From contig NC_079888.1 of the NCBI RefSeq assembly GCF_029227915.1, positions 2,431,001-2,495,000 on the forward strand: a stretch of DNA of 64,000 bases, read 5' to 3'. Source of the DNA: Hydractinia symbiolongicarpus. Lineage: Eukaryota > Cnidaria > Hydrozoa > Anthoathecata > Hydractiniidae. Each line of letters begins with the position of its first letter. The first letter of the stretch is position 1. The position numbers and the translations under genes were made by a program. A model generated the notes under the pieces. The model saw only the letters and a list, made by a program, of their open reading frames with translations, ran no database searches and had not been told where the DNA came from. Shown here one piece after another: positions 10,651-64,000 of the stretch.

Positions 10651-11155
10651 TTACCTCAGCTCTTCTAAAAAGAAAACATATGACTCGTGACTGTTAATAA
10701 GGCGGTCATCACAGAAAATTACTGCTCTATCGTTGCAATGTATCCACCTGTGAACCATTTGGTCAAAGGCTATGGTTGTGTAGTGACCATTATTTAAGTT
10801 GCCGCAAAAACGAAAATTTTTTTTTACGAAATTTCACTTCTCCATCTACGGTAAAAGGTATGGAAAGGGTACCAGGGTAAGCAGTAATACGAGAGGCAAT
10901 TTTTGACACAAGGCCGTTGGCACTGGCAAAACGTTTTAGCTGTAAAATGAGATGGGAACCGCACGACACTACCTCTTTTTCAACTAGAGCAGTTTGATGA
11001 GCGTTGCAAACATGGCAGAAGTAGGCATTGGTGTCTGACAACTCCTCGCTTTCAAAGAAATCATCTAAGGAAGATTGTAACGTAGGGTGCAGAGAAAGTT
11101 GGATGCATGGTGCTATAACTTCTAAGGAGCTGGTAATATGACATGAATTGCAAGT
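10651..11155 (-). pseudogene. USP (peptidase C19) domain, C-terminal half, of RLE-USP retrotransposon
   Basis: The minus strand reads the second half of a ubiquitin-specific protease. A CHVC zinc-finger half is near 10985-11020, followed by LILQLKRFA, then the catalytic histidine box (GNLNNGHYT) near 10790 and CNDRAV near 10730. The frame ends with a stop at 10651. A frameshift lies near 10800. The N-terminal Cys box is missing because the copy is 5'-truncated at about 11155. It matches the other USP copies in the window and was the C-terminal part of a retrotransposon protein. Confidence 0.8.
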
Positions 11156-11159
11156 GGTT

Positions 11160-13595
11160 GATGTCTTGATGCCAATACTAAAAAGACTTCAAAGAAATGG
11201 AAAGCCCAAATTTTTAAGAAAAAAAAACGGTTCTTTTAAGAACTACATATTTATATTAAAATTTAATAGTTATTTTAACTACATAATAGTGACTCACGTT
11301 GAAGCCACACAAGATCTTTGCAGATTATGTGGTTCAGAAATTGTTTTAAAAAATGGATATAAAACAGCCAAATATGTAGAAGATTTTTCCAACTTGATAA
11401 ATGAATTGTATAGTATTACAGTGGAACAGGAAGATTCTGAAATCTATCCAAAATTGTTATGCAGTAGCTGCTGTAGCAAAATAAGGAGATTGGATAGTAA
11501 AAATCGTTTAGAAGCTTTCATATTTTAACCATGTACTAACACTTGTAAAGTTCGTGAAATGAAACCTTTTTTTTCTAAAAATTACATCTGAAGGAGCTGG
11601 ATTACTTTTTCTCTGAGAATAATTTTGTCAAGTCAAATTATTATTTCTTATTGAGAGTTTATTTTCGTCAGAAAAATAAAAAAAAGGTGCTGTTAATGAA
11701 ATAATTGTGTTTATTGACCATGATGATGCATGGTTTTGTAATGTCTACAACAAAAAATAGAAAAAGATATGAAATTTCTTGCTAAATTGTCCTATGTGTC
11801 TTTAGATTCGTCTGTTGGGATGTTTGCGAGGGAGTTAGGAGCAATTAAAATTTGGAAATCCTTACCAGATTATGGCAGTGTTGTTAAGTCTAGACTTGAC
11901 ATCAAACAACCTTTTTGTAATGCAAACAATGATAGTGTTGTGGCATTTGTTGAAGACGAATGTCATACCTCTCTTATCCAAAAAAATTATAAAAACGTGA
12001 GGCATGCAGTTTTTGCGTTCTTGTGTGGCACAGCAGTCTTGCTCATCACAACCGGAAAGAAAAAAAAAGCCAAAATTGCGGATAGCTCAAAAGCCAATTA
12101 TCGATACTTGATAAATGACGAACTGCAAGAACGTTTACGAAATGCGCAGAAACAAAATAGAGAAGCAGTGATTAGCTGTAAAAGCTGAAGAACAAGAAAC
12201 ATTAAAGGAAATAATGAATAACGAAAAAGTAGATTTTAATGTAGAAAGTGTGCAATGGTTGTTGTGGCAGCAACAAAAAGAGCAAGTAAATAAAAAAGAT
12301 AATAGAGGCATGAGATAGCATCACTTCGTACTACGTTGGTGTTTAAGCATTTATTATACATCTGCAAAAGAACACAATCAAATGTCAAAAAAGAGATTAC
12401 ATTTTTAAGGATTGCCACATGTGAATACTTTGAGAAAGTATGCCTAGTTTACTACAGCTAGCTCTGGCTTTAATGCAGATATAATTTTAGCAACGTATCG
12501 AATAATCAGATTTCTTAAACCTGCCAGAGTCAGATCTGGTATTTAAAAGAACAACTGGCCAGTTAGAAGGTTTTACTGAAATTGTCAACTTGAAGTAAAC
12601 GAAGAAGTCAGTGTTAGTCATGTTGAAATGAATAACGATTTTGCCAGACATGTTGTTACAACTTATTTGGTTCGAGGGATTCTTCTTTATTCACGTACCC
12701 ATTTGGATATTTTGCAGGTACAGGATTTACATCTGCGTAACTTTACCCATGCACTTTTGAGGCAACTAGATTTCTTCCAGACATAGGCTTTCTTTCGAGT
12801 TTTTGTTTGTGATAGTGCAAGCCCTAGTAGAAAGTTTTTTAAAATATTACTAACTGATGTTGATAACAACATGCATTGGACATGAAACCCTTTTTGTTAT
12901 GATCAGAAGGTTTACTTTATGTCAGATGCACCACATCTGTTTTAAAACAACAAGAAATTGCCTTGAAAATTCAAGTTGGAACAAAAACATGAGAAATCTT
13001 CATGCATGCCTTATTTTTTTCAAATCAGTAGCCCTATCACATTTACCTGTCAGTACTCTATATTAAACTTCTCAGTGTTGTTACTTAGAACATGTTTTTT
13101 CTTTATTTTACCCTTGCTTTCAATGCTTTTTTATATATTTTTTATAGTTTAAAGGTCACAATATTTCTTGTTGATCTTTTTTAATGGGATTTGGGATTGA
13201 ATCGTGGAGCTCCAGGGTTGCGAAATCTGCAGAAAATCACTGAAGAACACATACAGTCACCAAGATTAAGAATGCAAGTGAAATTGGCGGCACAGGTACT
13301 TTAACATTATAACATACAGGACATATGATTGTATAAACAATGCAGTTGTTGAATATTGTTTATTCATTTTTTTCCAGTTTTGTCATTATCTTGTTATATG
13401 TTTAGGCGCTAAGCGAAACAGTGGCAAACGCTCTCAAACTACAAGGCGGCGTGACACAGTATCCCTTATAAAGTTTATACGAATGATAAATCGAGTGTTC
13501 GATTCTTTAAATGTATCAACTATGCGGGAAAACAATCATGGAAGAGCCGATTTGCTGCCTTATATAAGTGTTGACGACTGGCGATTCATGGCATT
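11160..13595 (+). pseudogene. P-element-like transposase relic
   Basis: Fragments in several frames follow the order of P-like transposases. An N-terminal zinc domain (LCRLCG ... LLCSSCC) is at 11305-11480. A helical segment with the phrase WLLWQQQKE is at 12080-12320 and its continuation reaches about 12540. The catalytic-region phrase SDAPHLFKTTRNC is at about 12920-12960. Segments at 13200-13310 (MQVKLAAQ, followed by GTACTT) and 13406-13595 (SETVANALKLQGG, FDSLNVS, DDWRF) look like spliced exons. Stops and frameshifts are frequent. The same N-terminal half occurs on the minus strand at 18300-19549. Confidence 0.7.
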
Positions 13596-13756
13596 TTTTA
13601 AATTGCTTTTATTATAACTTATTGCAATGACTTACATATACATGTCCCACAAAAAATCATGCAAAGATAATAACATTATTTATATACTTTAATTCTTTGA
13701 ATAAGATTTCTTCCAGAACTACTTGAGTAGATGTAGGCTGTTTAGTCACGTGTTAA

Positions 13757-13805
13757 TGAGGTGACAAAACAGCAAGCTGTAATGATAATACTTGTCTAAA
13801 GACAG
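13757..13805 (-). repeat. Mini-copy (about 48 bp) of RLE-USP 3' terminus
   Basis: The sequence from AATGAGGTGACAAAACAGC to TTGTCTAAAGACAG matches the extreme 3' end of subfamily 2 elements seen whole at 42232 and 59370. Nothing upstream of the terminus is present. It is an extreme 5' truncation. Confidence 0.65.
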
Positions 13806-13809
13806 ATTT

Positions 13810-21743: not shown

Positions 21744-21793
<50 letters not shown>

Positions 21794-23914: not shown

Positions 23915-24785
23915 TTACCTAAGCTCTTCAAGGAAAAGGATGTGAGATTGTACACGATTTAGCAAGCCTTTTTGGCAAGGGACCACTGTTCCGTCGTTGC
24001 AATGAAATCACTTACCATGCTTGTTTATAGGCAACAGTAGTGTAATGGCCATTGTCCAAATTTCCAGAGTGGTTGATTACAGCCCTAAGTTATAGTGCTT
24101 GCGACAAGAGACTTCAGTTTCTACAGTGATAGGTATAGAAAGGGTGCCAGGGTAAGATGTGACAGGAGAACAAACCGTAGATACAAGACCTTTGTCATAG
24201 GCAAAGCGCTTTAATTGTAGAATCAAAAGTGAACTGCACTCTGCTACCTCTTTTTCAACTGTTGCAGTTTGGTAACTGTTGCAGTTTGGTAACTGTTGTA
24301 GTAGTGACAGAAGTACGAGTTAACGCCTGACAATTGTTCGCTCTCCAAAAAGTTACCTACTGACGATTGTAAAGTTCATGTCAAGGGCAGTTGACGAAAT
24401 GGACTTACTTGCTCAGAGGTGCTAATATTATTGTAAGTGTTGCAGGTAGTACAGAGATTCACACAAGTGTTGAAAAATGTACCAAAGAAAGGAAAGGATA
24501 AAGACAACTCTGGTATGGGATACTCAAGAATCTCTAGGGCATCTTGCTGAGTGAACGGCTTAAAAGCAGTGTCCTTTTCATTAGAAACATAGCCTTTAAT
24601 GCATTTAGAAATGGAGAAGGGTTCACTGGAACCTTGGAGGTGGATAATTTGCGTAGAATGCTTATAAGACTTCTACCTATCGCCATATTAGAATCATTTG
24701 CAGAGATGGTTGTGTCAAGTGCGGATAAAACATAAAAACATTGCAAGAGGGAATTGATGTAACATGTGTTGCCCAAATTTAGCTG
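23915..24785 (-). pseudogene. USP domain of RLE-USP retrotransposon (copy in DIRS-like RT)
   Basis: The Cys box is intact (LGNTCYINSLLQC at about 24735-24780). The His box region lies at about 24030-24080 and the protein ends with a LEEL-type C-terminus and a stop at 23915-23917. The middle zinc-finger part is frame-shifted and has a short internal duplication near 24260-24295. Directly upstream, in the same direction, is the endonuclease segment, so the order endonuclease then protease is kept. Confidence 0.75.
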
Positions 24786-25205
24786 TTCAGTGACTCGTGT
24801 GCAGGCAAGGTAGTGGAGCTCTTTGTTGCGCCCTGGGCGTGTCCTTAAAGCTAGTGGTCGAAGTTGCTTGACTTTGTGACTTGGATGATTTCTTTGAAGC
24901 AGTTGGTGTCAATTAAGTGGTATGCTGTGGGTCCCTACCAGGATGAATCCAAGACAAAGAATCTCGAGATAGCCAGAAGCAAAACGACGAACGCATAGAT
25001 GACTCAGACGGAACAAAGTGACGAGTATTTATCAACCTTAACTCCATGCCAAGTCTCCAAGTTCTCTTCGCTTGAGCAAGTTAATTCAAGGATAATTACA
25101 GTTTTGGTCAAGGCAGAAGTTAAAAGTATGTCGGAACGAAGTTGAGTTACTGCGAGAAAGGTGGTACTATTAAAGTTGAATCTAAGTCTGACAATACTCT
25201 CCAAT
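24786..25205 (-). pseudogene. RLE endonuclease C-terminal part of the same retrotransposon
   Basis: At 25004-25204 the frame reads SDILLTSALTKTVIILELTC, then EENLETWHGVKVDKYS, the core of the restriction-like endonuclease with the ELT strand and K..KY motif. Downstream linker sequence (SSMRSSF, then a Ser/Thr-rich tract) matches 44354-44720. The copy is 5'-truncated at about 25205, where DIRS-like RT resumes. Confidence 0.7.
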
Positions 25206-26285
25206 CAGAGGCCAGGGAGAGTTTGTCACTTCTGAAAGAATTGATGAGAAAGGGGGAATTTTGTGCAAAATAGATCTGAAGGACGCACACTTTTAGTACC
25301 TCTTCACCACAACTCACAGAAGTTTGTAATGGAGGGAGAAGGTCTATCAGTTTCTATGTCTCTTCTTTTTACGAAGCTCAAGAACGATCCAATTGCCTTG
25401 CTGAAACACCTAAACATACGTCTCAAAATTTATTTGGACGATTGTATAATCTTAGCAGCGACAGCTCAAGAAGCAAAGCTGACTCGGAATTCTCTGTTTT
25501 TCATACTTCAGCACTTAGGATTTTCTATAAACTTCCAAAAATCAATTTTGAATCCAACCCATGCAATTCAGTTTCTAAGAGTGGAGGTCGACCCAATGAC
25601 TTTAAAACTGAGTCTACCACAGGAAAAGTACGGCAAAAGAATTTCCCAGTGCAAGAGTCTATTAACTGTGCCAAAAGTCTTAGTGAGGAAGTTAATGAAA
25701 CTGATAGGTCATCTTTCGTCAACAGCAATTGCAGTACTTCAAGCATTCCTTCGATGCAGAGCTATGCAAAGACAGAAAATTCAGGAACTATCTTTCAGCA
25801 AAAATTACGACTCTCTAATAATCTTAGCAAAGGAAGTGAGAAACGAAAATAAAAAAAATAAAAAAATATGTGATGCCTCAACCTGCAGTTGTCAAAAGGT
25901 CGGCAACGATAAGCAAAGAGATCTGGATCAGATCACGATTACTGTAGAGTATTTACCAGGAGTTCTCAATGTGGAAGCAGATGCAATGCCACGAAATGCG
26001 AGGGACTCGAGTGAATGGATGTTAGATCCAATGGCATTTCAAGCCTTGTGCAAGGCAAGAGGGGCTCCGTGCACAGTCCTATTTGATTCCAAATTGACTG
26101 ATCGGGTACCACTGTATTATGCTTAGAAAGTAGACCCTTACAGCAAAGAACAGGATGCTTTTTAAGCATGCTGGACACTTCTACGAGAGTATGCTTTTCC
26201 TCCATTTTGACTGATCGGGAACACTCTTTGGAAAGTCCATTCAGATTGCACAACAATTGTAATAGTCACTCCAGCTTGGCAAACT
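25206..26285 (+). pseudogene. DIRS-like reverse transcriptase and RNase H
   Basis: The start (LLKELMRKGEFCAKIDLKDAHF) matches the expected continuation of the RT piece ending at 23395. The catalytic box reads IYLDDCIIL at about 25425. A connection region (FSINFQKSIL, LSLPQEKY) follows, and the RNase H/substrate segment YLPGVLNVEADAMPRNARDSSEW is at about 25945-26020. It ends with VTPAWQTQ just before the second insertion at 26290. The frame is open across 25263-26126 apart from a few earlier shifts. Confidence 0.8.
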
Positions 26286-26289: not shown

Positions 26290-27098
26290 TTGATGTTGAG
26301 GTGACAAAACAGCAAGCTGCAATGATAATACTTGCCTAAGGACCGTTGGTTATGGCAATGTAGAGGTTGTACCCTCTAAAGATTCCGAATCAATCCAAAA
26401 TCTTCCTTGTTGTAAGGATTTGGCGAAATATACATTGACCACTTTGACTAACATAAAAGTAACACAATACACAAGAACAAAAAAGAGCAAACTTCGAATA
26501 CAAATACTTGTCCACGAAAGACATTGAACAAAACAATGATCAGTCAGAAACAATAAAAACAAGCGATTCAAATTGATTTAAGGAGTATATAAATAAAACT
26601 TATTATAAAGTGAATATCCTTGAACGGATCAATGTTGATGGATTTCATAACGAATTCTTAGGATAAAAAAAAGCAGGTAACGATCGCACCAGAACTTGTG
26701 ACTCTGGCAGTAGCTTTACACGTGTTAATGGTCCCAACACTCAGGCCTACACAGATCATTGATGCAATGGACTAATCTAACGACAGGACCAGCATGTCGT
26801 AATTGAGATTTTATGCTGTCAAGGTCGAAAAAAGAGCACAAATGGAAAAAACTTATAACCCCATTTGGCTCTTTTAAAAGTAACTCGGGTCAGCAGGATC
26901 GTCAATCCTATAGGCCAAGTGAGCAAACTTGGTCTCCCTACTGAAGACAATATGTCAAGGCCCCTTGCTATGCTTCTTATATGGTCTCAAGAAAGAGAAG
27001 GGAGTGAGCAAACTTCACTTTCACGATGAGTTGACCAATCAATCAATGGTCAGCCGGGGTAAATTGCAACCACTAGGAAAGCTTCCTCCCCCGATAGT
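26290..27098 (-). repeat. 3' UTR of RLE-USP retrotransposon, subfamily 2
   Basis: The complete 3' end starts at GATGTTGAGGTGACAAAACAGC, with the hairpin at 26361-26378 and the structured segment at about 26680-26765 (stem CCAGA 26689-26693 / TCTGG 26703-26707). The conserved CAAGGCCCCTTGCT tract is near 26955. The USP stop codon at 27099 marks its start. Confidence 0.75.
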
Positions 27099-27965
27099 CT
27101 AACATTTACTAAAGAACAGTGTGTAAGCTGAGCGATTGTTAAGTTGCAATGAATCTACCGAAGTAATGGCACGGTCGTCACACTTAAGCTAGGTGTTATG
27201 CTTGTCTTTGATAAAGCCCAGTAATGGCCTGCCCTTAGAGTGCTGGAGTGGTTGATGGTCGCAACTTAATTGAATGTGTTATTAAAACATACATCCTCAG
27301 AAGGATGGGATGGTACTTTCAAGAAGCGATTTTTCTTTGGAAGGCACGAAACCAACCTGTTGTCTTTAAACGATGACCCATTTAGAGATGCATACCAAAG
27401 CAATTGGACAACTAGAACACTTCCACAACTTGATATTTTCGTCTTAACTGTTGCTTCCTAATGAGACAATCACTGCGGACAATACCATTTGTTGTCGCCT
27501 GAAAGTTGCTGGGGTTGGAAAAGATAATTAAAGGAGTCTGATATTGACATAAACGTTGGCAAGATTAGAATGGGCTTCTTTTCGGCTCTGGAAAATGAAT
27601 AAAAACCGAAATTACAGGACGTTGTTGTGGTTGCAGAGAGAATCTCGTCCACCAATGATGAAGATCCGATCAACTCATCAATAAGAACTTGTAAAATTTC
27701 AGGGAAATCTTGTTGGTTATTGTAGTAAAATTCTGTCCTACCTAGAGCGTGCATTTCATTTTGCAAGGACCGCAAATAATATGATAGGTCATTTGTCGAA
27801 CGTGAGCGACTTAAAAGGGACATATTAATGACTAAAGATTTCTCTAGTGGCAACAACAAACAAGTCTGTGATGACAACTGAGCCCAGAGTTTTGGGAAGA
27901 CAGTTCATGCTTGAGGAATAGAGTTTGTATAGCAAGAGTTGCCCAGGGTAAATGTTAGGAACGGC
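27099..27965 (-). pseudogene. USP domain of RLE-USP retrotransposon (second DIRS insertion)
   Basis: The Cys box reads LGNSCYTNSI at about 27935-27960. A QQDF box (YYNNQQDFPEIL) is near 27715, and a zinc half with YCPQ is near 27475. The His box (HYW/AFIKD in another frame) is near 27215, and CDDRAI follows near 27180. Several frameshifts are present. It matches the USP frames at 43033 and 61548. Confidence 0.75.
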
Positions 27966-29335
27966 ATTTTTAGTTGGTGTTTGGTTAGGAAGCGTGGTTG
28001 GAGGTTGAACATTTTCATGTAGTTTTAAAGTTGAAGAATTTGCAACAGGGGAGTGATTATTTTGTGTTTGGGATAAAGAGGACCATTGTGTCGACTTCTG
28101 GGACCATTGTGTCGACTCTCTGGCAATTCAGATACAAAAGAAACATTTCGTGCTCAAATCATCAAGTTTGTTTGTAATTGAAAATGCAGCACGGCTGCTA
28201 AGACCAAGAGATTTTAGAGAGCAAGTTACAGACTTTCAGAGAGTAACATCTAGCACCTACCTCAATGGCAAATATATGTGGCAACCACCCGTTACCGCGT
28301 ATTACCTCAACTAGCAGAGAATATTTATATAGCTTTAGGGAGTGCCAAGATTCCATATTTTCCTCATAAGGACAAGTAAGCTCAATTAGGATGACGTGCT
28401 TAGAACAGTTAGAACATATCACAATATCAGGTCTTAAAGAGGTGATGGCTATATGGCCTGGAAAAACAAACTCGTTGCGTAAGTCTGCTAAACAGACCCA
28501 GTCGCCGGCAAGGTGCAGGACCTGTTGGTTTTGATCTATTGTCAGATGTGTAGGCACCTGCCTTGACAAAAGGTATTTTGCGAACACGCTGTTTAGTAGA
28601 TGGTATTACTTGGGAATGGAACTTTTGGAGATGGAGAAGAAGCTCGCGACAGGGCAACCTTACAGGCTCCTAAGACATATGTTGTTGTGCACATCTCCTT
28701 TCTGCATAGAAGGCAAGAAGATTCTTACAAAATTTTCCAGCGCTTTAAATTACTGGGAGAAAGGACGTCGTACGCAGAGGCAAGACAGAAAGGCAACAGA
28801 TTTGGAGACATGGCTAGAATGGATTTCCATAACAGGTCTTTTTTGACAGAATTCTTTTATCTAGTCCACTGTCCCTGCACTTGTAACTGCATAGGTCTAC
28901 TCATTTCAACTTCTTTATTGATGTTCTTTGCTGTTTTAGAAATTAAATTTCGATAAGCATAGCACTGCTTTGTACTTGGAATATTTAACTCTTTGTTCAT
29001 GCCTAGTCCGGCTCTGCCATATTGAAGAGTTTCCATGACAAATTTAACTGCAGCCTCAGCCTTGGCGGTTTTAACTGAATCCTTAACCTTCCACAAACCT
29101 GTTTTCAAAGCGGGGGCATTGCCAGACACTAATGGATCCTTCGAATCTCTTAATAATAAGTGGCCGTTGATCTTAGAACACTTAAGCAAGGTGGTTAGAC
29201 TCTTAATAGGCAAAGGGCAGGGCGAACAGTTACTTCACTTGTCAGTTCAAAAACCAACACTGTTACCTCAGAGGGTAGACCTGTTCTCAAACCCCTGGGA
29301 GAGTATCATCAACTTCTTCTAAATCAAAGTCTTTA
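27966..29335 (-). pseudogene. RT thumb, zinc knuckle region and RLE of the same retrotransposon
   Basis: Read on the minus strand from 29320: the thumb (SGHLLLRDSKDPLVSG, LQVQGQWTR), a damaged knuckle region at about 28600-28800, then the endonuclease at 28198-28587. The endonuclease phrases are SLRPDIVICSNCSKHVILIELTC, then EENMESWHSLKLYKYS and IFAIEVGARCY. The PD and ELT residues of the PD-(D/E)XK fold are kept. A low-complexity linker leads into the USP domain. The 5' truncation is at about 29335, where the DIRS recombinase begins. Confidence 0.75.
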
Positions 29336-36639: not shown

Positions 36640-37170
36640 TGGTCTTTCCCACCGTCGATGATTTAATTGAATAAGTACACATGAGATAAATGCAACTTAT
36701 CATAACGTGAATATTTTTAAACGGATAAATTTAAAATCCGTCTTAACGAACGTGTGTAAGTTAAACCAAACAACTATCTGTGCGCCAGGACTTGTGACCC
36801 TGGCTGTAGCTTTTCACATGTGTTACGGAGCTTAAACATTCAGCTTTACACAAATAATTGTTGCTGTTGACCTGCCCAATGACATTACCAGCCTGTCGTA
36901 ACTGGGGTAATATGCGTGGGCGTAACACCACGAAGACCTGAACCCCTTTTGAAATTTTCTTCTAAAATGACTAAGGGCAGCAGGATCGTCAATCCTAAAA
37001 GCAAAGTGAGCAAACTCTGCCTTCCTACTGGACTGGGGTAGTAAGTGGGATGATCAAGCCCCCTTTCTGTGCTTCTGTAGAAAGAAAGGAGTGAGCAAAC
37101 TCCGGTTTTACCGTACAATGACTAACATAAATCAGCTGGGGTAAATAAAACTGCTAGGGTCATAAATTCC
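36640..37170 (-). repeat. RLE-USP subfamily 2 3' UTR, 5'-truncated copy
   Basis: Closely matches 42450-43000. It includes the structured segment with stem GCCAGG 36784-36789 / CCTGGC 36799-36804, and ends with the CAGCTGGGGTAAATAAAAC element. No USP remains. Confidence 0.7.
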
Positions 37171-37179
37171 CATTATTAC

Positions 37180-41879: not shown

Positions 41880-42231
41880 CGGTATCGAAATGAGGGAAGT
41901 CCTGTATTTACTGTGAATAACATTACCCTAAAAGTACTATATGTGTTTTTATTATTTTATTATTTAGAACAGCCATTTATTCACAACATTCCTGCTGACA
42001 ACAATCCAAGGTAGTTAAATAATCCACTCTAGTTGTTTTTTTGGTTTATTTTACATTGCCAAAATTTTAATTTATTTTAAATTAAATGTGCAAAAATTAA
42101 CGCTAAAAAGTTTGTTTTTTACCTTGAAAATTTCAGGCTATAAACTTTGTACGTAGATGGTGCACTAAGATCCTAAGTGATCTACAGAATCATCTTCGTA
42201 GTACAGATCCTGTAAAGTTCATATAATGATG

Positions 42232-43032
42232 ATGAGGCGACAAAACAGCTAGCTGTAATGATATTTCTTGTCTAATGACAGCTGGTTCTACTATAGTTAG
42301 AGGTTGCAACCCTCTAGAGATTTTTCAAAAAAGCAAAATCCCCCTTTTTGCAAGGATTTCCTAAAAACATTGACCGTAAAAGGCAGAAAAATACAACAGC
42401 GACAGAACACAACACTAAACAATAAATATTAAAGCAATTCAAAATGAATTGAATAGGTACAAATGAGATAAATAAAACTTATCATAACGTGAATATCCTT
42501 AAACGGATAAATTTAAAATTATTCTTTAGAGAATGTGTTTAAGAAGCAAACAACTATCTGCGCGCCAGGACTTGTGACCCTGGCTGTAGCTTTCCACATG
42601 TGTTATGGAGCCTTAACACTCAGCCTTACACAGATAATTGTTGCTGTAGACCTGCCTAATGACAGTACCAGCCTGTCATAACTGGGGTAATATGCGTGGG
42701 CGTAACACCACGAAGACCAGATAAGAAAATCTAACTCCATTGCAAAGCTTCTTCTAAAATGACTAAGGGCAGCAGGATTGTCAATCCTGAAAGCAAAGTG
42801 AGCAAACTCTGCCTCCCTACTGGACTGGGGTAATAAGTGGGATCGTTAAGCCCAAAGACAAGATATGATATCAAGCCCCCTTGCTGTGCTTCTTACAGTG
42901 TCTCTATACAAAGAGAGGAGTGAGCAAACTCCGGTTTCACGGTGCACTGACCAACATAAATCAGCTGGGGGTAAATAAAACCGCTAGGGTCATGGATTCC
43001 CTCCCCCATTTGTTGTGTGACATACAAATAAG
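42232..43032 (-). repeat. RLE-USP subfamily 2 3' UTR, full length
   Basis: It starts at the 3' terminus (GATGAGGCGACAAAACAGC), with the hairpin at 42298-42316 and the structured segment at 42550-42640 (stem GCCAGG 42564-42569 / CCTGGC ending 42584). The GGGGTAATAAGTGGGATCG box is near 42826. The USP stop lies at 43033. Confidence 0.8.
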
Positions 43033-43395
43033 CTAACTTCTGGAAAGGAAAAGTATGTATGACGAAGAATTATTCAAGTGGAATGTGTCTACTTGAGAAA
43101 TACAGCGATCGTTGCATTTGAACCAGGTGTTTTGTTGGTCCTTAATGAAGGCCCAGTAATGACCTGCTTTTAATGTACCTGAGTGGTTAATGGTAGCAAC
43201 CAAGTTATACTTGTTGTTGAAAGACACATCGTCAGTTGGGTGAGATGCTACCTTTAAGACATGATGTTTTTTAGGCAAGCAATTGACTAACTTGTTGTCT
43301 TTAAAAGAAGACCCATTTACTGATGTGTATCTTAACAAATGTACAACAAGGAAGTCGCCGCAATTAGAAATCTGAGTTTCAATTGTGGCCTTTTG
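43033..43395 (-). pseudogene. USP domain C-terminal fragment, subfamily 2
   Basis: An open frame with the catalytic histidine box (ATINHSGTLKAGHYWAFIKD) and CNDRCI, ending SSSYILFLSRS and a stop. The Cys box half is gone because the copy is cut at about 43395, where the 3' UTR of another copy begins. Confidence 0.8.
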
Positions 43396-43664
43396 ATTAA
43401 GAAGTGGAGTCGTCACTCTCCAAAGATAAGACCAGTGCAGTCAAACCCCCATGCTGACACAATTATTATTTTGTTTTTTTGTTTATTTTTCCTTTTTGAC
43501 TGGGGTAATAAGTGGAGTCGTCACTCTCCAAAGACCTGGTACAGTCAAACCCCCTTGCTGGTGTAATTTTTATTTGTTTTTCGCTTTTATTTTGCCAAAA
43601 AAAAAGAAAGAATAGTCAAACCCCCTTGCTGACATAAGCCGGAAATTGTGGTGCTGACTGCAAT
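43396..43664 (-). repeat. RLE-USP subfamily 1 3' UTR, proximal part
   Basis: Three relatives of the AAGTGGAGTCGTCACTC box (43396, 43510, weak near 43600), each followed by a CAAACCCC(C/A)(T/A)TGCTG tract. The distal part with the hairpin is missing. Confidence 0.65.
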
Positions 43665-44480
43665 TTACCTAAGCTCTTCAAGAAAAAGGATGTAAGGTTG
43701 TACACCATTAAGCAATCTTTGTTTGCAAGGGACCACTGCTCTGTGGTTGCAATGAAACCACTTAGCATGCACTTGGTTATAAGCAAAAGTAGTGTAATGG
43801 CCACTGTTCAAATTTCCAGAGTGGTTAATTACAGCCCTTAAGTTGTAGTACTTGCGACAAGAGACTTCACTGTTTACAGTGATAGGTAAAAAAACGGTGC
43901 CCGGGTAAGATGTGACAGGAGAAAAAACATTAGACACAAGACCTTTTTCATAGGCAAAGCGCCTTAATTGCAGAACCAAAATCTTTTTCAACTGTTGCAA
44001 TTTGGTAACTATTGCAGTAGTGACAGAAGTACGAGTTAACACCTGGAAATGCTTCGCTTTTCAAAAAATCTACTGAAGATTGTACAGTCGATGTCAAGGG
44101 CAGTTGAAGAAATGGACTTACTTGCTCAGAGGTGTAACATTATTGCAAGCGCTGCAAGTAGTGCAGATTTTCACACGAATGTTAAATAATCTACCAAAGA
44201 AAGGAAAGGCTAAGGACAACTCTGGTATGAGATACTCAAGAATCTCTAGGGCAACCTGCTAAGAGAACGGATTAAAGCAGCGCCCCTTGCATTAGAAACA
44301 TGGCCATTTAGAAATGCAGAAGTGTTCGCTGGAACCTCGGAGGAACAAAACTTTTAACTATCGCCATATTGGAAACATTTGCAGAGATGGCTGTGGCGAC
44401 TGCAGGTAACACATAAAAACATTGCAAGATGGAATTGATGTAACATGTGTTGCCTAAAATTAGCAAGCCGCTGTTGCTGC
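43665..44480 (-). pseudogene. USP domain of RLE-USP retrotransposon, subfamily 1
   Basis: Cys box LGNTCYINSILQCF at about 44430-44465. A damaged middle region has a CHYC zinc half near 44010. LVLQLRRFAYEKG precedes the His box (NHSGNLNSGHYTTFAY) near 43815 and CNHRAV near 43745, and the frame ends LEELR with the stop at 43665. The upstream endonuclease frame overlaps the Cys box in a different frame, a frameshift at the junction. Confidence 0.8.
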
Positions 44481-45060
44481 CTAGTGATTTCTTGTGCAGG
44501 CAAGGTAGTGGAGCTCTTTGTTACGCCCCGGGGATTCGTGTCCTTAAAGCTAGTGGTCGAAGTTGCTTGTGACTTGGATAATTTCTTTGAAACAGTTGGT
44601 CTCAATTGAGCAGTATGTTGTGGATCCCTACCAGGATGAATCCAAGACAAAGAATCTCGAAATTGCCAGATGTAAAACGATGATCGCATAGATGACTCAG
44701 TAAGAGATTTCAGAGTGGAACGCACAGACATGTTAGAAAAGCAGAGGCGACGGAGGCATATTCTAACTGTTTCGGAACAAAATCCCCTAGCTCCTACTTC
44801 AACAGCAAAGAAATGCACAGTCCAATTGTTTAATCTCATGACGGAACAAGTGACAAGTGCCCATGTTCTCTTCGCATGGGCAAGTTAATTCAAGGATAAC
44901 TACAGTTTTGGTCATGGCAGAAGTTAAAAGTATGTCAGGACGAAGTTGAATTACAGCAAGATAAGGCGGTACTATTAAGGTTGAATCTAAGTCTGACAAT
45001 AACCTGCAATCAGAGGCCAGGTGAAGGATTCCTTGAATTTTTAACGCTTTTTGGTGGGAA
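44354..45060 (-). pseudogene. RLE endonuclease and linker, subfamily 1
   Basis: From 44999: LAVIQLRPDILLTSAMTKTVVILELTC, with the PD...ELT motif, then a frame change and FFAVEVGARGF near 44800. The SMRSSFYIW phrase and a Ser/Thr-rich linker that runs into the USP Cys box follow. Two frames are needed to read it. Confidence 0.75.
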
Positions 45061-45199
45061 GTTTACCAGCTGGAACAAAGGATATTTTATGACATCTAGA
45101 GGGTTTTGCTGGCCCATAATCGGATAAGAACTTCTGAATGGCTGTCACTAACACACGTAGAACAGTATTGTGGCGGTACGTGAATCTACCTTGTGAAAG

Positions 45200-46320
45200 G
45201 TCTAATTTACAAGCGCCTAAAATGACATGTTACGAGAGGGTTTTTTACATAGGGTGCAACTTTTGTCATTTTGAATTCCCCACTTGACAAGATTTGTAGG
45301 AGAAGGAAGCGTGTCATAGGTTGCGCCGATGCAAAACGAAGATAAACTTTGCGGTACAGACAACAGGTTCTTCCAAGAAAGATCGCATTTAATAAACGAG
45401 CACCACTTAATCCAGTTACCTTGGACATGAAGCTGAACGGCTCGAGCATAATAGTTGTCTTCCTCATTGTGCTGCACAACATCTGATACAAGTTTGCGGT
45501 AAGAATGGGTACCAATTGGTGGGACGCTCTTATGGCTCACCAGTCCTAAACCTGCTCCACCAAACTGGTGGAAACCAAGTATTTTCTTGAACTCGACTTG
45601 ACTCTCTCTCTGATTTTACTATCTGATCTACCTTCCAGTGTCCAGCCAGTCTGGTGGAGAGTCCGAGACTAGAGGATCAGCCGAATCTCGCAGGAGAAGA
45701 TGACCGCTGATCTTAGCAGATTTTAGTACAGAGGATGGACTTTTTAAAGGTAACGGGCATGGCAATGAAACGGAATACAAACTTATGTTGAAAATAGAGT
45801 GATGGAGTCTCAGCCACTTTCTTATGAAGAAAGACAGCTTTTGTTCTAGTGAAACGAAACTAGATATCAGAACTTCGTAAATTAAAAATGGCCATCGTAT
45901 TCGGGGAATTAGAAGATGATGCAAAAACCATACTTTGTGAATGCCTCTATGGGAAGACTTATCTATGAGTTTGACTTGCTCTACAACGTTAACAATAACC
46001 TGTTGGACAACAGCTGAATCTGACAATGCTGAACTTATTGTCCGGCCAAGAAACTTAACTGGGATTGCGTGAATAGATATGATTGGTTCTTGAAGGACAC
46101 AAAAAGGACACTGATCTAAAGCTTGTCCATTAGCTATAACAATGCTTCGTGATTTTGAAGGTCTAAAGCCCATTCCAGCCCAATGAAGGGCTGTTACACA
46201 ACGATCCAACAAGTTCTGAGTTTGAGGGACACTCGAAGACATTAAAAATATGTCATCCATAAAGGCCTGAAGCGGAGGATGGTCTGAATCGCCAGGCGGA
46301 ACACAACTTCTTTAACTCTT
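45200..46320 (-). pseudogene. RT catalytic part and thumb with zinc knuckle, subfamily 1
   Basis: The only copy here that keeps the RT active site: AFMDDIFLM at about 46245-46275. The RT continues with FRPSKSRSIVIANG, PVKFLGRTI and LIPRIRWPFLIYEV to about 45628. At 45540-45217 it goes on with VQLHVQGNWIKW, a TYDTLPSP phrase and the start of the zinc knuckle (CTLCKK). Homology ends at about 46320, so the N-terminal half of the RT is missing. Confidence 0.75.
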
Positions 46321-51800: not shown

Positions 51801-51903
51801 TTTGAGCAGTGACAATACAGCATAACCGACAAAGCACTTCATTTTTAGGTAAAGTGGCATGTTTAGTATATATCTTTGTTGGTGTATTAACAACTTCAGC
51901 CAT
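48838..51903 (-). CDS. DUF6589-type protein with N-terminal zinc domain, three exons
   Basis: Exon 1 (51903-51133) starts at ATG (MAEVVNTP) and holds a ZAD-like zinc domain (LCRLCC ... CRKC), then a low-complexity segment; it ends ...GGCSRQ before GTATTA. Exon 2 (50626-49537) follows a TATAG acceptor in phase. It contains DNWDMRVLVATRK, LPIHLPHPH-like and SMPIINANESKYSDCVEILRTF phrases, GDQLTRVRFAGAKHHCAPFKPVMWH and YREKYNRKDAK-like wording, typical of DUF6589. Exon 3 probably starts at 49488 after a 48-bp intron. The C-terminal frame (to 48838) is one base out of phase, with a T6 run near 49447 as the likely shift. Function is unknown; the context suggests a transposon protein. Confidence 0.7.
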
Positions 51904-51909
51904 TTCAAT

Positions 51910-52345
51910 GTGAAGATGACATTGACAAAAGTACTTCAAAACTGACTTGAAACATTTGCACTGTTATCACTACTAACTTAGCAATATGTAGCTAGCTAAA
52001 CTAAAACAAAAAAACAATATAGTTACTATATTCCTTTGTACACTCAACATAAAGTAGTTTAAACATAGTAGGCTGTTTCATATACAGAAGGAAAAAAAAG
52101 GCTTATTACTTATTGCATTACTTTAGCGAAAAGGTAGCTAGCTACCTTTATGTCTAATCTGCTACAACGTCAACAGATCAGTAAAGCTAGTGATATTTGC
52201 ATCTTTATGTCTGGTCTGCTACACAACAAATCAGTAAAGGTAGTTACATTTGCCTGTATTTTACATGCAACTAAAAACTTAAATTTCTATCTATTCCTGG
52301 TGTCTTATGTTACATATAATAATAACTAGCTATATATATAACCCT
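51910..52345. other. Non-coding stretch with an imperfect tandem duplication
   Basis: Upstream region of the DUF6589 gene. Units of about 56 bp at 52141-52200 and 52201-52256 share TTATGTCT..TCTGCTACA and ATCAGTAAAG. No terminal repeat matching the left side of the RecQ gene could be seen. Confidence 0.4.
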
Positions 52346-52795: not shown

Positions 52796-52855
52796 AAACT
52801 TTGAGGATAATATACGGAAGTGACGTTGGGAGTGTGATGATGAAAAGGGTTTCCA

Positions 52856-53480
52856 ATTATACAAGCTGCACTAAAGTATCTTGTCTACAGGGACGGTGGG
52901 TGTAAATAAAATTGGGATTAGGCTCCAAGAAGAAGGTGTTGAATACACTTTCTTGCTTATTACAAGCACGAGTACTGTCCAACTTGGACCTAAAACTATT
53001 CTCTGAGAAAATCTTAAAGAGAAAAAACAATCCTTCAATCACAAACAATACGACACATGACAGAGCTAACAACATACACGGACTGGTTACAGAACAAACA
53101 CAAATAGAAAAAAATGTATATCTCCAAAATATATAATATAAAAAAGAATTAAATAAAAACCCTCCTGTGCGCCAGAACTTGTGACTCTGGCTGTAGCTTT
53201 CAACATGTGTTACAGGGCCCCAACACTCAGCCTTACACAGGAGGTTGTCATGACGGGACCAGCCTGTACATATTCTGACTAAGGATAGCAGGGTTGTCAA
53301 GCCTGAAGACCAAGTTAGTAAACTTGGTCACCTTACTGAACTGGGGTAATAAGTGGGGTCGTTACACCCAAAGACAAGCTAAAAGCAAACCTCCTTGCTA
53401 AGCTTCTTTTAAGTTACCAGAGAAGAGTGAGCTGAACTCTTTACCCTCTGGGTATTGACGGTAAACTGGTTCTGGAATGA
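52856..53480 (-). repeat. RLE-USP subfamily 2 3' UTR, near-identical to 60815-61440
   Basis: About 625 bp that match the 3' UTR of the best copy with few differences. It includes the structured segment 53161-53243 (outer stem CCTCCTGTG/CACAGGAGG; inner stem GCCAGA/TCTGGC at 53171-53191). It is 5'-truncated before any USP codon. Confidence 0.8.
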
Positions 53481-55229
53481 ACTAAAGAAAGCTTTTTATG
53501 CATAACACAAAATTAGATTTTCCTATCAGCGTCTTTTTCAACTTACTGCCCTCGTGTTTTTCTAATTTTCTGACAGTAAAATATATCCCGAGTCTGAGAC
53601 TAGTAAGATGAATCCTTTAGTACCATATTATTTATATACTAGTCGATTAGGCCCGTGGAAAAATCCACTTAGGCAGAAAAACAATTGAAAAGTTCTGTCA
53701 TTTGAATTTTGATGACATCAGCAAATATTTCAGTATATTGAATATGCCTTTTACTAAAAAAAATAATCTGAAAATGCATAAAAAGAAAGTATTTAACAAA
53801 AAAGTTCTTAAAATCTAACACAAAATATCAAATGTCAAATTGCATGAAATCCTCCCAACAAAACTTCAGACAAAATATGAAAAACAATGGCATGCAAGGT
53901 GTAAAATCTAGTTAGTAGAAAGTTACAACATTGACAGTCACAACCCCCGCAAAAATATGCACAAATGTAAAAATTAACCGGTTAACAAAATAATTTTTTG
54001 TCTAATGATCCGTACTGACTTTACCAAACATTTTAACCTGAAATGTCGAAAAAGCAATGAGCAAGGAGTAAATTTCAAATCAACAAAAATCATTATTTTG
54101 AAAACATTGTATATATATATATGGTCCTTCCTCACATAAGTTTACAATAAATGTAGAACACAAAGGTTTATGAGGAGCAAATCAAAATATGAACAAAAAT
54201 CAGTTCAATTGGCATGTTCTATATTGTCTTCAGCCATAAAATCTTCCACAAAATTGATATGAAACCCATCAAATTCAACTCAGAAAAAGCCGTCTTTTAA
54301 GTGCATACAAAAATACAACTTGTAGAATATCAAATTATTATTTTTAGTATATATAATTGCATATGGTCCTCCCTCACAACAGTTAAATTTTTGCACTAAA
54401 TTTGCAACACAAAATACAAATTCTAAATAATTCCTATGGTTTTCCTCAAAAGTTTAATCAAAATATAAAAGATGAGAGGTAAACGACAAAATCAAAGTTT
54501 GCAGAATTTAATTATTTTGGTATATATATGTCTATTGATATATGCCCTTTATAACAATATTTCAATCCAAAATGTGAAAAAGAAAAACAGTTTGCAACAA
54601 AATCAGTTATTCTGATGATATTGCATACACTTTTTCTCCACAAAAGTGTAAAAAAAGAATGGTTGTAGGAAATACTTCTGATTCAACAAAAATCAGCATT
54701 TGCATCTTGTACTCATTAAATATTACCCAAAATGTCAAAAAACTGTGATTTGGAACGCATCAAATTTATAAATAGAGAGGGATCAGTCATTTCGGTATGT
54801 TGTACAGAGTCCTGCCCGGTAAGAATTTATACAAAATATAAAAAAAAACACAAGTTTTTTCGGTGTTGTACTCCCTCAAAAAAGTTGAAACTTTTCTTAA
54901 AGATAATTAACTCCTATATGTATCGAGCTCAAATCTTCGTCTAGGGGCTTGGAAATAGCAAAATACGATTTATTCGCCTAATAACGGAATACGCAGAGTG
55001 AACGATAATACCACTTTTTGAGACTTTATGTACAGGATGTTTAGGTCGCATTGACATAGAAAGCACCTGTTTCGCTTGGGTACATAACATTTTGTACCTA
55101 ATAAATTAGAAACGCTGGAAGGTTCAAAAAAGGGACAACTTTGACGTGGTTTGACGTTGTTCTTGAACAGGGAGTTTAACCAAGGCTACCCTAGTCTGTA
55201 TATATATATTTGAATAAAAACTTGCTATT
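53481..55229. repeat. AT-rich stretch with degenerate repeats
   Basis: Degenerate units recur around TATATATGGTCC(T/C)(T/C)CCTCACA (54115, 54360) and CAACAAAAATCA(G/T) (54080, 54690). No gene is recognised. A 70-codon frame at 54732 is not called. Confidence 0.35.
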
Positions 55230-58259: not shown

Positions 58260-59369
58260 GCAGTTTGACATGAGCTATCGCACGCTTCAGTGCTGGCCAA
58301 AGCTATCAAAACTACACTTAGCCCTGGGTAATTTTAAAAAAAATGTGGTTTTGCCTTATGATTTTCAAATTTTTGCTGCTGATATCAGCATATTTTGGGC
58401 CTCGAGTGCCACACCTCCGTATATATAGGAGTAAATTATCTTTAATTGAGACAAAATGCCATAAACAAAAACATTTTAGTCAGAACATCTAGAACAACAA
58501 AAATCACTACACTTAAGGTACCAGAATTACTACATGTTAAATAAAAATTGTTTCGTCATATTGCATGTAACCGATGTATATAGCTAAGTTTAGTTACACA
58601 AAACGTGAAAAATACATTATTTGCATACACAAATTGTGAAAAATACATTATTTGCTTAAAAACAGTCCTTAAACTCTTCTTAAATATTATGTAATACTTT
58701 TTTAAAAGTTGTTGTGGCTTGTTAATTTAAGCTTAGAATGTCAATTAAAATAAGTTACAGTCACATTCTTAGCAAAGACCACTAAGATTAGCTTACATGT
58801 AAAAAGCAACATAAAACTGAAGCTAACATAAGGTAGCTAATAGCTGGTCACTTAAATATAAACTGGAGACTTAGCTAGGTATAAAGAACATGGCTACATA
58901 TTTATAAATTCCTAGCTACCTAGCTAGTTGTTGTTGGTGTGGTTGATGCTAGCTAACAAACATGTCTCGCATCAATAATATCATCAAAACTTTAAAAAAC
59001 ATAAACAAACCTTACAGAAACCTTTCTATACTTCATTTATATACCATGCCCCTTTTTAAATGCTTTTGTAAAGATTTATTTTGAAGGCAAGAGAAGACAA
59101 ATGCTTAAAAAGGACAGCCATCTTTTTTGCAAACACAATTTCCGTTACTTTGTGCTTGAACTTCATTTAACAAACCACACAAAACTCGCGGCTTTTCACG
59201 ACAAAGAAGACATATTTTTTTCGGCAACATCAAAAATTTTTTTCGGCAACATCAAAGGAAAATGACGATATCAACTTTGCCTGTCACAGAGACACGGAAC
59301 TGGCGTATTATTATATAGATGAGACATTTACATATGAGACCTTTAAATTATAGCCCCCTTCTCATAGAT
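58260..59369. other. Non-coding stretch
   Basis: AT-rich with many AGCTAGCT motifs. A tandem pair of TTTTTTTCGGCAACATCAAA lies at about 59212-59256. No gene recognised. Confidence 0.4.
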
Positions 59370-59648
59370 GATGATGTGACAAAACAGCTAGCTGTAATGA
59401 TATTTTTTGTCTAATGACAGCTGGTTCTACTATAGTTAGAGGTTGCAACCTTCTAGAGATTTTTCAAAAAAGCAAAATCCCCCTTTTTGCAAGGATTTCC
59501 TAAAAACATTGACCGTAAAAGGCAGAAAAATACAACAGCGACAGAACACAACACTAAACAATAAATATTAAAGCAATTCAAAATGAATTGAATAGGTACA
59601 AATGAGATAAATAAAACTTATCATAACGTGAATATCCTTAAACGGATT
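59370..59648 (-). repeat. RLE-USP subfamily 2 3' end, 5'-truncated copy
   Basis: Almost identical to 42232-42515, with the hairpin at 59437-59455. Homology stops at TTAAACGGATTAG near 59648. Confidence 0.8.
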
Positions 59649-60794: not shown

Positions 60795-61547
60795 GATGAA
60801 AAAGGTTTACAATACAGCAAGCTGCACTGAAGTATCTTGTCTACAGGGACGGTGGATGTAAATAAAATTGGGATTAGGCTCCCAGAAGAAGGTGCTGAAT
60901 ACACTTTCTTGCTTATTACAAGCATGAGTACTGTCCAACTTGGACCTATAACTATTCACTGAGAAAATCTTAAAGAGAAAAAACAATCCTTCAATCACAA
61001 ACAATACGACACAAGACAGATCTAACAACATAAACGGACTGGTTACAGAACAAACACAAATGGAAAAAATGTATATGTCAAAAATATATAATATAAAAAA
61101 AGAATTATATAAAACCCTCCTGTGCGCCAGAACTTGTGACTCTGGCTGTAGCTTTCCACATGTGTTACAGGGCCCCAACACTCAGCCTTACACAGGAGGT
61201 TGTCATGACAGGACCAGCCTGTACATATTTTGACTAAGGACAGCAGGGTTGTCAAGCCTGAAGACCAAGTTAGTAAACTTGGGCACCTTACTGAACTGGG
61301 GTAAAAAGTGGGGTCGTTACACCCAAAGACAAGCTGAAAGCAAACCCCCTTGCTAAGCTTCTTTTAAGTTACCAGAGAAGAGTGAGCTGAACTCTTTACC
61401 CTCTGGGTATTGACGGCAAACTGGTTCGAATGAACTAGCTGGGGTAATATAAAACCGCTCGGATTTACATTTTCCTCCCCCATGACCCTGGAAGTACAGG
61501 TTTTATAAACGTAATGATAAATGTATAAGAAAGAAAGAAAAAGCGGA
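60795..61547 (-). repeat. 3' UTR of the best RLE-USP retrotransposon copy
   Basis: Directly follows the USP stop at 61548. It contains CAGCTGGGGTAATATAAAACC near 61440, the GGGGTAAAAAGTGGGGTCGTTACAC box near 61300, the tract CAAACCCCCTTGCTAAGC near 61340, and the structured segment with stem 61126-61146 and outer stem CCTCCTGTG/CACAGGAGG. The 3' terminus is at about 60795-60815. Confidence 0.8.
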
Positions 61548-62402
61548 TCAACAGCGAACGTAACAAAGAATATAACATGAATTGTTGTTGAGAATAGGTG
61601 GAGAGCATTTGCAAACCGCTCTATCATTGCAGTGGTACCAAGAATTTGTGGCAGGATCCTTAACATAAGCCCAATAATGACCTGCGGTTAATGTACCGGA
61701 GTGATTAATTGTTGCTAACAATGAGTAGTTCTGATTAAACATTGTGTCCGTATCACTGACGAGAGGTAGTTGCAGGAGAGAGTCACGTAAAGAAACACAT
61801 TCAACAACTCTGTTGTCTTTTACCAGATGTTCACCATGTTTTAAAAACCTTTTAAGATGCAGGAATACGATTTCACTACTCCTGCTGATTTGCGTTTCTC
61901 TAGTACTCTCTCTATGTGCAAAGCATTGCGGACAAAACCACTTGTTTCCATCAGTTAGAATTTCCGGTTCTAAAAATTTGCTGACACAAGATTGGATTTT
62001 AGATGTCATTGGCAGTGTTAAAATGTCCTGCATTTCGACATTTACCGAGGTGCACAGGCAGGTGTTACAGCTTACGGACATTGAGATTTCAGTTGAGATT
62101 TTATCTGCAGCAATCGGGGAAAATCCCTTAAGGGCGTCCAAAACCACAAACAAAATCTCTGCTACATCTTGCTGAGTATTAAATTGGAAGTCCAGTTTCC
62201 CATCAGAGTGCATTTGACGTTCAAGGGCCCAGAGAAAATTCGAAGGGTCAACAGGTGACAATGATTGCTTCAGCTTCGCCATGTTAAGCGAAATAGACCT
62301 CGCAATAGGTGATAAATGAAACGATTCTGACCCACTCTGGCACCAGAGTGTTGGAATGGTACTTAATACTTGCAAAATGGCGTTGGCGTAACAAGTTTGC
62401 CT
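61548..62402 (-). pseudogene. Ubiquitin-specific protease (peptidase C19) domain of RLE-USP retrotransposon
   Basis: A cysteine protease of USP type that would remove ubiquitin from proteins. The Cys box (TCYANAILQVL) is at about 62366-62398, upstream of the first possible start in this frame. Within the 275-codon frame the QQD box is at residues 68-70 and the zinc ribbon uses C103/C106 and C148/C151. LHLKRF is at 173-178, the catalytic His is in AGHYWAY (H233), and Asp is in CNDRAV (D251). The domain ends the protein 24 residues later. GFLNKG, the first half of the Cys box, is in the upstream endonuclease frame; one base is missing inside the box, so the two frames were one. All other catalytic features are intact. 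Confidence 0.85.
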
Positions 62403-64000
62403 TTGTTTAAAAAACCGATGTTTTTATAGACACTAATTGGTTGAGTGTCATTTTTATTTTGGCTAACCTTTTTAGATGGCCCCTTTCGGCGAGATGAAAC
62501 ACCCTTGGTCTCCACAATGGGCAAAGCCTGCTTGGATTTGGGTAATTGCATTAAGGAGTCAGTTGACCAAACATTGGATTCACGTGCCAGCCAGATACAA
62601 AAAGAAGACCTCATACTGATTTTACCGAGATCATTTGCAGTGGAATAAGCAAGTTTGTTGGTGAAACCCATTCTTTTTAAACAGGCAGTGGTGGTTCTTG
62701 CACAATATCCTCTTGCTCCTACTTCCACTGCGAAGAAATCAACTTGCCAGCCATTAACCATAATCACATTCATTAAACAGGAATATTTGGCAACTTTTGT
62801 GGAGTGCCAAGCATTCATGTTTTCCTCACATGGGCAAGTGAGTTCTACAATAATAACGCGCTTAAGGTCATTTGAATATAACACAAGGTCCGGTTTAAGC
62901 TCAGAAATGGCAATATGGCTAGGAAACACATAGTTCGAGTGTGTGTCAGCAACAATCTTCCAATCTTTGGTAAGGTGCAGTATACCTGACACTTTAGATT
63001 TTGTATGTGCCTTTGACCCGGCTCTCAGAAAGGTTATTTTTTGACAATTTTTAGGAGGTTCAGAAGGAAGCTCAAAAATGAACTTTTTCAAGGTTTCTAC
63101 CAAATGGGTAAGTACAGAATCGTGTCTAAAGGTATATCTACCCTGGGAAAGAGCAGTTTTACAAGCACCAAGAATGTGAGCAGAAGTGCAAATTTCTTTG
63201 TGACATAGGAAACATGATGGTTCTGTATTTATTTTCCACCTCCTTAGGTTACTTGGTGATGGCAGAACATCGTAAGTGGATTGCAGGCAGAAAGATAAGA
63301 GATTAGGAGGAGTTGCTAGGATGTTCTTCCATGAAAGATCAAACTTTACGTAGTTCTCCCATCTTGTCCATTGGCCCTGCACCTGAAGTTGCAGTGCCTT
63401 AGATAGATAGCTTTCCTCGTCAATCTCAGCCGATGTTTTTGCGATTAACTTTCTGTACTTGTGAGTGGTTTTTGGTGGTATTACTTCCACTTTACAAATG
63501 CCAAGACCGGTTCGTCCACGCTGTACAGGACCCCTTATGGTCTTGTACTTTAATTCACCCTCAGCTATGTTAACTGCATCGCTCACCTTCCAAGAACCTG
63601 CCTTTAAAGATGGATCGAGTGTTGACAGAATCGGATCTTTGGAGTGACGCAAAAGTAGGTGGCCGCTAATCTTTGCGGATTTTAAAATAGAAGTGAGGCT
63701 CTTAATGGGCAGAGGGCAAGGAGAGGAGTCAGCATATAGGGAAATGTTTGTGATGGAACTGTGTAAGTTCAGCCATTTTCGTATGAACACTGAAACCTTT
63801 TGCTCTAGGCGCCCAGCAACAGACATCGAGACCTCGTATATTAACAGTGGCCACTGAATTCGCGGGATCAAAAGATGTTGCAAGATCCAAAGTTTTTGCG
63901 CTCCAGTGTATAAGGACTTATTAATGACACCAAGCCCTTCTATCAGCTTTTCCTCCAATTCGTTGATGGACTTCCTGTCTGAGATAGAACAATCAATAAT
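62363..64000 (-). pseudogene. Non-LTR retrotransposon RT thumb, CCHC knuckle and restriction-like endonuclease
   Basis: The longest frame (531 codons, 63958-62363; the 5' part lies beyond the window). Residues 1-100 are the end of the RT (LIPRIQWPLLIYEV). LQVQGQWTRW is at 191-200. The knuckle CFLC...H...C spans 249-266 (CX2CX8HX4C) and RHD is at 278-280. The PD-(D/E)XK endonuclease has PD at 356-357, E372 in ELTCPCEEN and KVAKY at 388-392, followed by EVGARGY at 412-418. This is the R2/NeSL/Hero type of organisation, where the endonuclease nicks a DNA target for primed reverse transcription. After a basic linker the frame reads into the first half of the USP Cys box. It is listed as broken because of the junction frameshift. 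Confidence 0.85.

Follow-up and report, generated by a model that had tools for sequence, protein, structure and literature searches.

Among the non-LTR retrotransposons that encode a restriction-like endonuclease (RLE), R2 is represented by solved structures (PDB 9nl3, 9dou), in which a thumb, a CCHC knuckle, and the RLE follow one another. Utopia-1_TSP and nematode NeSL elements, which also encode an RLE, carry an N-terminal Ulp1-like domain, and HERO elements, again with an RLE, are in many cases not site-specific, with some families residing at microsatellites [according to an excerpt of PMC4640811]. For DNA transposons, Ginger1 transposases with a C-terminal Ulp1 or OTU domain are described, as is a Trichomonas protein, reported in 2010, that joins transposase_11 to Peptidase C19 (cd02657); the authors propose that transposition involves the ubiquitin pathway [an excerpt of PMC2836005]. 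Helentrons, in addition, contain OTU ORFs [an excerpt of PMC4067079].

The window, that is, the whole 64,000-nt stretch of Hydractinia symbiolongicarpus DNA that was analyzed (GCF_029227915.1, NC_079888.1:2,431,001-2,495,000, forward strand), has a G+C content of 31-42% in 2-kb steps and contains many broken mobile elements. Judged by motifs and alignments, the window contains several broken copies of an RLE-type non-LTR element family whose protein is fused at its C-terminus to a USP-type deubiquitinase (peptidase C19). Both the fusion of the USP to the RLE element and its conservation are, in our assessment, very probable, a judgment that does not include the role of the domain.

With R2, the family shares the order of thumb, CCHC knuckle, and RLE, and with NeSL and Utopia the combination of an RLE element and a cysteine protease of the ubiquitin/ubiquitin-like type. 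It differs from R2, whose chain has no USP and whose 28S rDNA target was not seen in the window by Rfam, and from NeSL and Utopia, where the protease is Ulp1-like and N-terminal rather than C19 and C-terminal (the N-terminus of the Hydractinia element lies outside the window). We know of no protease in the HERO clade. Ginger1, the Trichomonas transposase_11-C19 protein, and Helentrons are DNA or rolling-circle transposons, whereas the family in the window is a retrotransposon. The closest solved USP domains are those of the cellular USP8, USP15, and USP2, host enzymes that have neither a reverse transcriptase (RT) nor an RLE. The sequence-only reading knew of no peptidase C19 fusion; our searches likewise returned none for retrotransposons, but a broader precedent exists in a DNA transposase that carries a C19 domain [excerpt of PMC2836005]. 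Our search for a C19/USP fusion in a retrotransposon covered the open-licence literature (outside Repbase) and returned none, a weak negative because the phrase search also missed the Utopia paper. Within the reach of these searches, no earlier description of a C19-RLE fusion is apparent, and the one in the window, if true, would be the first report of a C19 protease in a retrotransposon.

Domain organization of the least broken copy

Copy C occupies the minus strand between the window end at 64000 and about 60795. Its upstream part is a 545-codon open frame (62366..64000, minus strand) that comprises the thumb region, the knuckle, the RLE, and a linker and that, according to the ORF listing, is still open at the window end. 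The best PDB matches of this ORF are R2 proteins (9nl3_A, E=2.3e-5; 9dou_A, E=4.4e-5). Three stretches align co-linearly with these chains: the RT thumb region (residues 27-113; 63662..63922, minus strand), the knuckle (231-315), and the RLE (368-467; 62600..62899, minus strand). Taken singly, the same stretches match only weakly (i-Evalue against 9nl3 of 1.1 for the thumb, 26 for the knuckle, and 32 for the RLE), and the R2-like assignment of copy C is instead based on the order and the motifs that it shares with R2. In the co-linear alignment, the motifs of a CCHC knuckle (C263-x2-C266-x8-H275-x4-C280; 63161..63214, minus strand; CRHC..AHIIGNC in R2) and then of a PD-(D/E)XK RLE (PD370-371 .. 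E386-L-T .. K402/K405-Y) are kept, with PD370-371, E386, and K402/K405 as the putative RLE motif residues.

Pfam matches only zf-RVT in the 545-codon ORF, at E 1.4e-5 and slightly under the cut-off, while the knuckle-RLE piece alone has no PDB match at E up to 10, and NCBIfam has no match for either piece of copy C. The RT of copy C would fall beyond the window end. RT sequence was seen only in copy A1, in a piece at 45.6-46.3 kb with an FMDD motif and similarity to the end of RVT_1 (positions 150-204, E=1.9e-4, below the Pfam cut-off); this RT-thumb piece has no PDB match at E up to 1. AlphaFold2 models of the A2 USP (6 rows) and of the A1 thumb-RLE ORF (5 rows) had mean pLDDT values of 35.7 and 37.2, too poor for a fold search. 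In the aligned R2 protein, the matched RLE stretch covers residues 1051-1153, and the chain ends 16 residues further, at 1169. Since the R2 chain stops just past the RLE, the USP is an added C-terminal domain.

The USP domain of copy C (61551..62423, minus strand), an open stretch of 291 codons, matches Pfam UCH with 102 bits (cut-off 23.9; E=4.6e-29) over profile positions 7-254 of 254. Its PDB matches are USP8, USP15, and USP2 (about 8e-21 to 1e-17), mainly over residues 112-290, and the Cys box adds almost nothing to them. On the minus strand, the Cys box is located at 62399-62370, the QQD box at 62180-62166, the two CxxC motifs at 62069-62058 and 61934-61923, and the His box at 61703-61668. 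The catalytic motifs are TCY, GHYWAY, and CND, with the Cys box crossed by a frame change. Of the USP features named in the sequence-only reading, the Cys, QQD, CxxC, and His boxes are present, but the expected Asp is an Asn in copy C (CNDR). The order that it proposed for 61.5-64 kb, thumb, CCHC knuckle, and RLE and then USP, is borne out on the minus strand by the UCH match together with the co-linear R2 alignment. The comparison with the UCH/UCH_1 and RT profiles that it advised also gave UCH matches for copies B1 (7.3e-8) and B2 (4.6e-19) and for the C-terminal part of A1 (8.6e-16); the middle piece of the A2 USP and the N-terminal piece of the A1 USP match no Pfam family.

Recurrence, junction, and 3′ regions

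The window was searched by tblastn with the two pieces of copy C and then with 13 pieces from other copies. USP sequence is found at six places, all on the minus strand: 62423-61551 (C), 27952-27105 (B1), 43422-43039 (B2), 44473-43677 (A1), 24783-23924 (A2), and 11209-10660 (A3). Copy A1 (43676..46311, minus strand) contains the RT end, thumb, knuckle, RLE, linker, and USP with several frame changes and stops, and the broken copy B1 (26292..29234, minus strand) contains thumb/knuckle, RLE, linker, USP, and 3′ region. Copy A2 (23924..25216, minus strand), also broken, comprises the C-terminal part of the RLE, the linker, and the USP. The 5′-truncated copy A3 (10660..11209, minus strand) has part of the USP only (UCH_1 E 0.0016, UCH E 0.046), while B2 (42228..43422, minus strand) has 128 open codons with the C-terminal part of the USP, 111 of them matched by UCH, and a 3′ region; the USP pieces of A3 (10.7-11.2 kb) and B2 (43.0-43.4 kb) are both cut off inside the domain. 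The recurrence of the RLE-USP order that had been read at 27.1-29.2 and 43.7-46.3 kb is confirmed by these searches, and at 23.9-25.2 kb the USP does follow an RLE, of which only the C-terminal part is there. An RLE is located upstream of the USP in all four window copies that reach that far, and the distance from the RLE end to the Cys box is 167 (C), 163 (B1), 190 (A1), and 178 nt (A2).

The copies fall into three lineages, A, B, and C. In the thumb-RLE part, identity to C is 49-50% for A1 and 57-58% for B1, and in the USP it is 27-34% for A and 36-41% for B. Between tblastn pieces of A and B, identity is about 38-40% in the thumb-knuckle part and about 24-45% in the USP. C is nearer to B than to A in the thumb-RLE part and in the USP alike, as expected if both domains travelled together. 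Searches of two contig collections gave no confirmed relative: USP, knuckle, and RLE queries returned 3, 36, and 12 pattern-matching stretches in viral_contigs, and the knuckle alignment returned 26 in genome_contigs. A degenerate pattern for YDVLPSPSNL found one stretch in each collection. One candidate relative, stretch L001, was rejected, as its best match to the RLE query (E 0.054) is at chance level. Since both collections consist of viral and prokaryotic sequences and might omit the genome of the window itself, the lack of relatives there says little.

The sequence-only reading had the USP following the RLE "without a gap". The USP is indeed directly downstream, but RLE and USP are in different frames and do not form a single clean ORF. 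In copy C, there is only one frame change in 2.45 kb, located inside the Cys box (62391..62423, minus strand), where the RLE frame reads ..YKNIGFLN and the USP frame ..TCYANAILQ; by coordinates, the USP frame is -1 relative to the RLE frame. The 55-codon linker of this copy (62400..62566, minus strand) is open in the RLE frame. The linker is stop-free in that frame in three of four copies, C, A1, and B1 (chance 0.030, 0.044, and 0.086, from base composition), whereas that of A2 has two stops and, compared with A1 by eye, a further frame change. In the USP frame of copy C, a stop is found ten codons before the Thr codon of TCY with no ATG between, so the USP could not be started there on an ATG of its own. 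A separate start codon, which would have spoken against a fusion, is likewise lacking in A1 and A2 in the interval that runs from the closest stop upstream to the Cys codon, but ATG codons are present in this interval in B1. No copy in the window has an uninterrupted RLE-USP frame, C being the least broken. We infer that RT, RLE, and USP are made as one chain.

The 3′ region of copy C (60795..61550, minus strand) follows the USP, has an end-motif at 60800-60851, and closes with TCATC. A second, 5′-truncated C-type 3′ end at 52839..53484 (minus strand) is about 95% identical to 60795-61437, and a 5′-truncated B-type 3′ end at 59367..59647 (minus strand) is 98.6% identical to 42228-42508. A B-type 3′ region fragment lies at 36665..37171 (minus strand) and isolated short B-type 3′ ends at 13751..13806 (minus strand), 41728-41781, and 41830-41879. 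A motif common to the B and C ends includes TAGACAAG and CAGCTTGCTG in most copies; several of these ends close with TCATC or ATC runs, to be compared with the HERO families at microsatellites. By eye, the flanks past the B-type 3′ ends share only short ATC runs and give no sign of a fixed insertion target, and Rfam at gathering scores has no match in the window. An RNA hairpin at the 3′ end was considered and rejected (five of eight aligned end-motif sequences folded, z -0.25 to -1.17). B- and C-type ends recur alone in the window, as 5′-truncated copies with a common 3′ end. Such a pattern is usual for a non-LTR element, and it links the USP with the element and not with a host gene. Moreover, the high identity within the B and C end pairs suggests fairly recent activity, and in B2 and C long stretches of the USP remain open.

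Tail units are repeated in the A lineage as well. A tandem unit of 264 bp (97% alike) occurs at 9820-10495 after the A3 USP and in part at 39913-40247 and 774-1008, in the same orientation, and is probably the 3′ tail of this lineage. All 14 tallied family fragments (774-64000) are on the minus strand, whereas other coding remnants are found on both. This bias could stem from the direction of the target, from nesting, or from selection within a plus-strand gene; the fragments are perhaps not independent, as B2 appears to be inserted in the 3′ region of A1.

Constraint on the USP and its possible role

Selection on the USP was assessed by simple Nei-Gojobori counts on broken copies, with no codon model. 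Between B2 and B1 (118 codons), differences at codon positions 1/2/3 number 31/17/70 (P 5e-9; pS 0.85, pN 0.19), and between A3 and A2 (146 codons) 55/35/85 (P 2e-5; pS 0.80, pN 0.28), with synonymous differences saturated in both pairs. C and B1 differ in the USP (285 codons) by 137/113/176 (P 8e-4) and in the RLE (341 codons) by 131/98/205 (P 1e-9), the USP having evolved faster (pN 0.43 vs 0.32). The third-position excess in two within-lineage comparisons and one between-lineage comparison suggests that the USP was kept by purifying selection in the past. The close pair A1 and A2 (126 codons) differs by 15/14/19 (P 0.65), with dN/dS of 0.43-0.87 in four stretches; weak or no constraint there would fit copies that died soon after insertion. 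The dN/dS analysis proposed by the sequence-only reading accordingly speaks for constraint in B2/B1, A3/A2, and C/B1, but shows little of it in A1/A2.

The following model is consistent with these data. An ancestral RLE-encoding non-LTR element of the R2 group would have gained a cellular-type USP at the C-terminus of its RT-RLE protein, and the USP would then have been inherited vertically by at least three lineages. Predicted to be catalytically active, the USP would accompany the RT-RLE protein on the element's own RNA and strip ubiquitin in cis from this protein or its neighbors, so that the proteasome would not degrade the complex before target-primed reverse transcription is complete. 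Such protection of the ribonucleoprotein is the mechanism that we tentatively favor as the most likely one, although we would put it slightly short of an even chance. The same caution, with belief and doubt nearly in balance, applies to the wider proposal that the captured USP is active and required for integration, that the ubiquitin it edits is that of its own ribonucleoprotein or of the nicked target, and that its loss stops retrotransposition. Both protein decay and target-site chromatin restrain retrotransposons. An element with its own selected deubiquitinase would provide a handle on the ubiquitin step that limits target-primed reverse transcription, and it would show repeated capture of ubiquitin-editing proteases (Ulp1, OTU, C19) by unrelated mobile elements. 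In addition, gene-insertion tools are under development from R2-type proteins, and a USP-type domain might matter for these.

Other readings of the fusion concern where the USP acts and whether it acts at all. It might work at the target and strip ubiquitin from histones or repair factors (e.g., H2A/H2B, PCNA) at the nick, changing repair there in favor of second-strand synthesis and joining. The domain order is in keeping with such a role, as the USP adjoins the RLE, the target-nicking domain of R2, but the nearest solved USPs, USP8, USP15, and USP2, act on varied substrates and do not point to one here. For DNA transposons, a part of Ulp1/OTU in repair during transposition has been proposed [excerpt of PMC2836005]. 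We regard action at the target as rather unlikely, and the sequence does not choose between it and protection in cis. Another reading accepts the fusion but holds that the USP has lost catalysis and has a structural or ubiquitin-binding function; we consider it more doubtful still. In line with lost catalysis, five of six copies have Asn at the third catalytic position (Asp only in B1, by eye), and the frame change of copy C cuts through its Cys box. Active USPs with Asn at this position do occur, and against the loss, the catalytic residues are, by eye, kept wherever they are covered (Cys in 4/4, His in 6/6, and Asn or Asp in 6/6 copies).

The junction of copy C could be read in two further ways. 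A programmed -1 frameshift at the T TTA AAC that starts at 62411 in the Cys box would restrict synthesis of the USP to a fraction of the ribosomes and yield both RT-RLE and RT-RLE-USP products. This heptamer is a classical -1 slippery site, and the sole frame change of copy C coincides with the one TTTAAAC that is in phase within the 545 codons. The frameshift product would, however, drop the Gly before TCY, which is kept in A1, A2, and B1 (LGN[TS]CY), and A1 and B1 shift frame nearby in the opposite direction. Nor does the RNA downstream fold unusually (z -0.9, pseudoknot-free model). There are five in-phase slippery heptamers in the 545 codons, two of them overlapping here, so that a chance overlap in the shared 61 nt is not rare, and T and G runs are prone to indels. 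The lost Gly, the opposite shifts in A1 and B1, the lack of a strong fold, and the five slippery heptamers make a lesion the more likely cause of the frame change, and a programmed event appears quite improbable. Finally, the USP could be a host gene, or a fragment of one, that lies beside RLE remnants by chance. The same order with similar spacing across three lineages, the 3′ regions behind the USP that recur without it elsewhere in the window, and, for C, A1, and A2, the lack of an ATG of its own ahead of the Cys codon leave this reading hardly credible.

Other elements in the window

Several remnants in the window belong to other elements. A fragment at 25248-26126 (plus strand), between A2 and B1, resembles an RT (RVT_1 E 0.0031, below cut-off) and is presumably of the DIRS-like class, and a Penelope-like fragment at 16693-17909 (plus strand) was assigned by eye, without Pfam support. 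An inverted repeat pair at 6176-6520 and 21779-22134 (about 350 bp, 92-93% identical) is unrelated to the USP family. An integrase core domain (rva_4) is found at 31580-32095 (plus strand) with E=4.9e-41. Pieces of a RecQ-like helicase at 46546-48588 (plus strand; DEAD 9.9e-16, Helicase_C 3.1e-14) face DUF6589 pieces at 48838-50626 (minus strand; 4e-16, 1.6e-11), and a zf-AD protein lies at 51097-51963; the helicase, DUF6589, and zf-AD pieces are perhaps parts of another mobile element.
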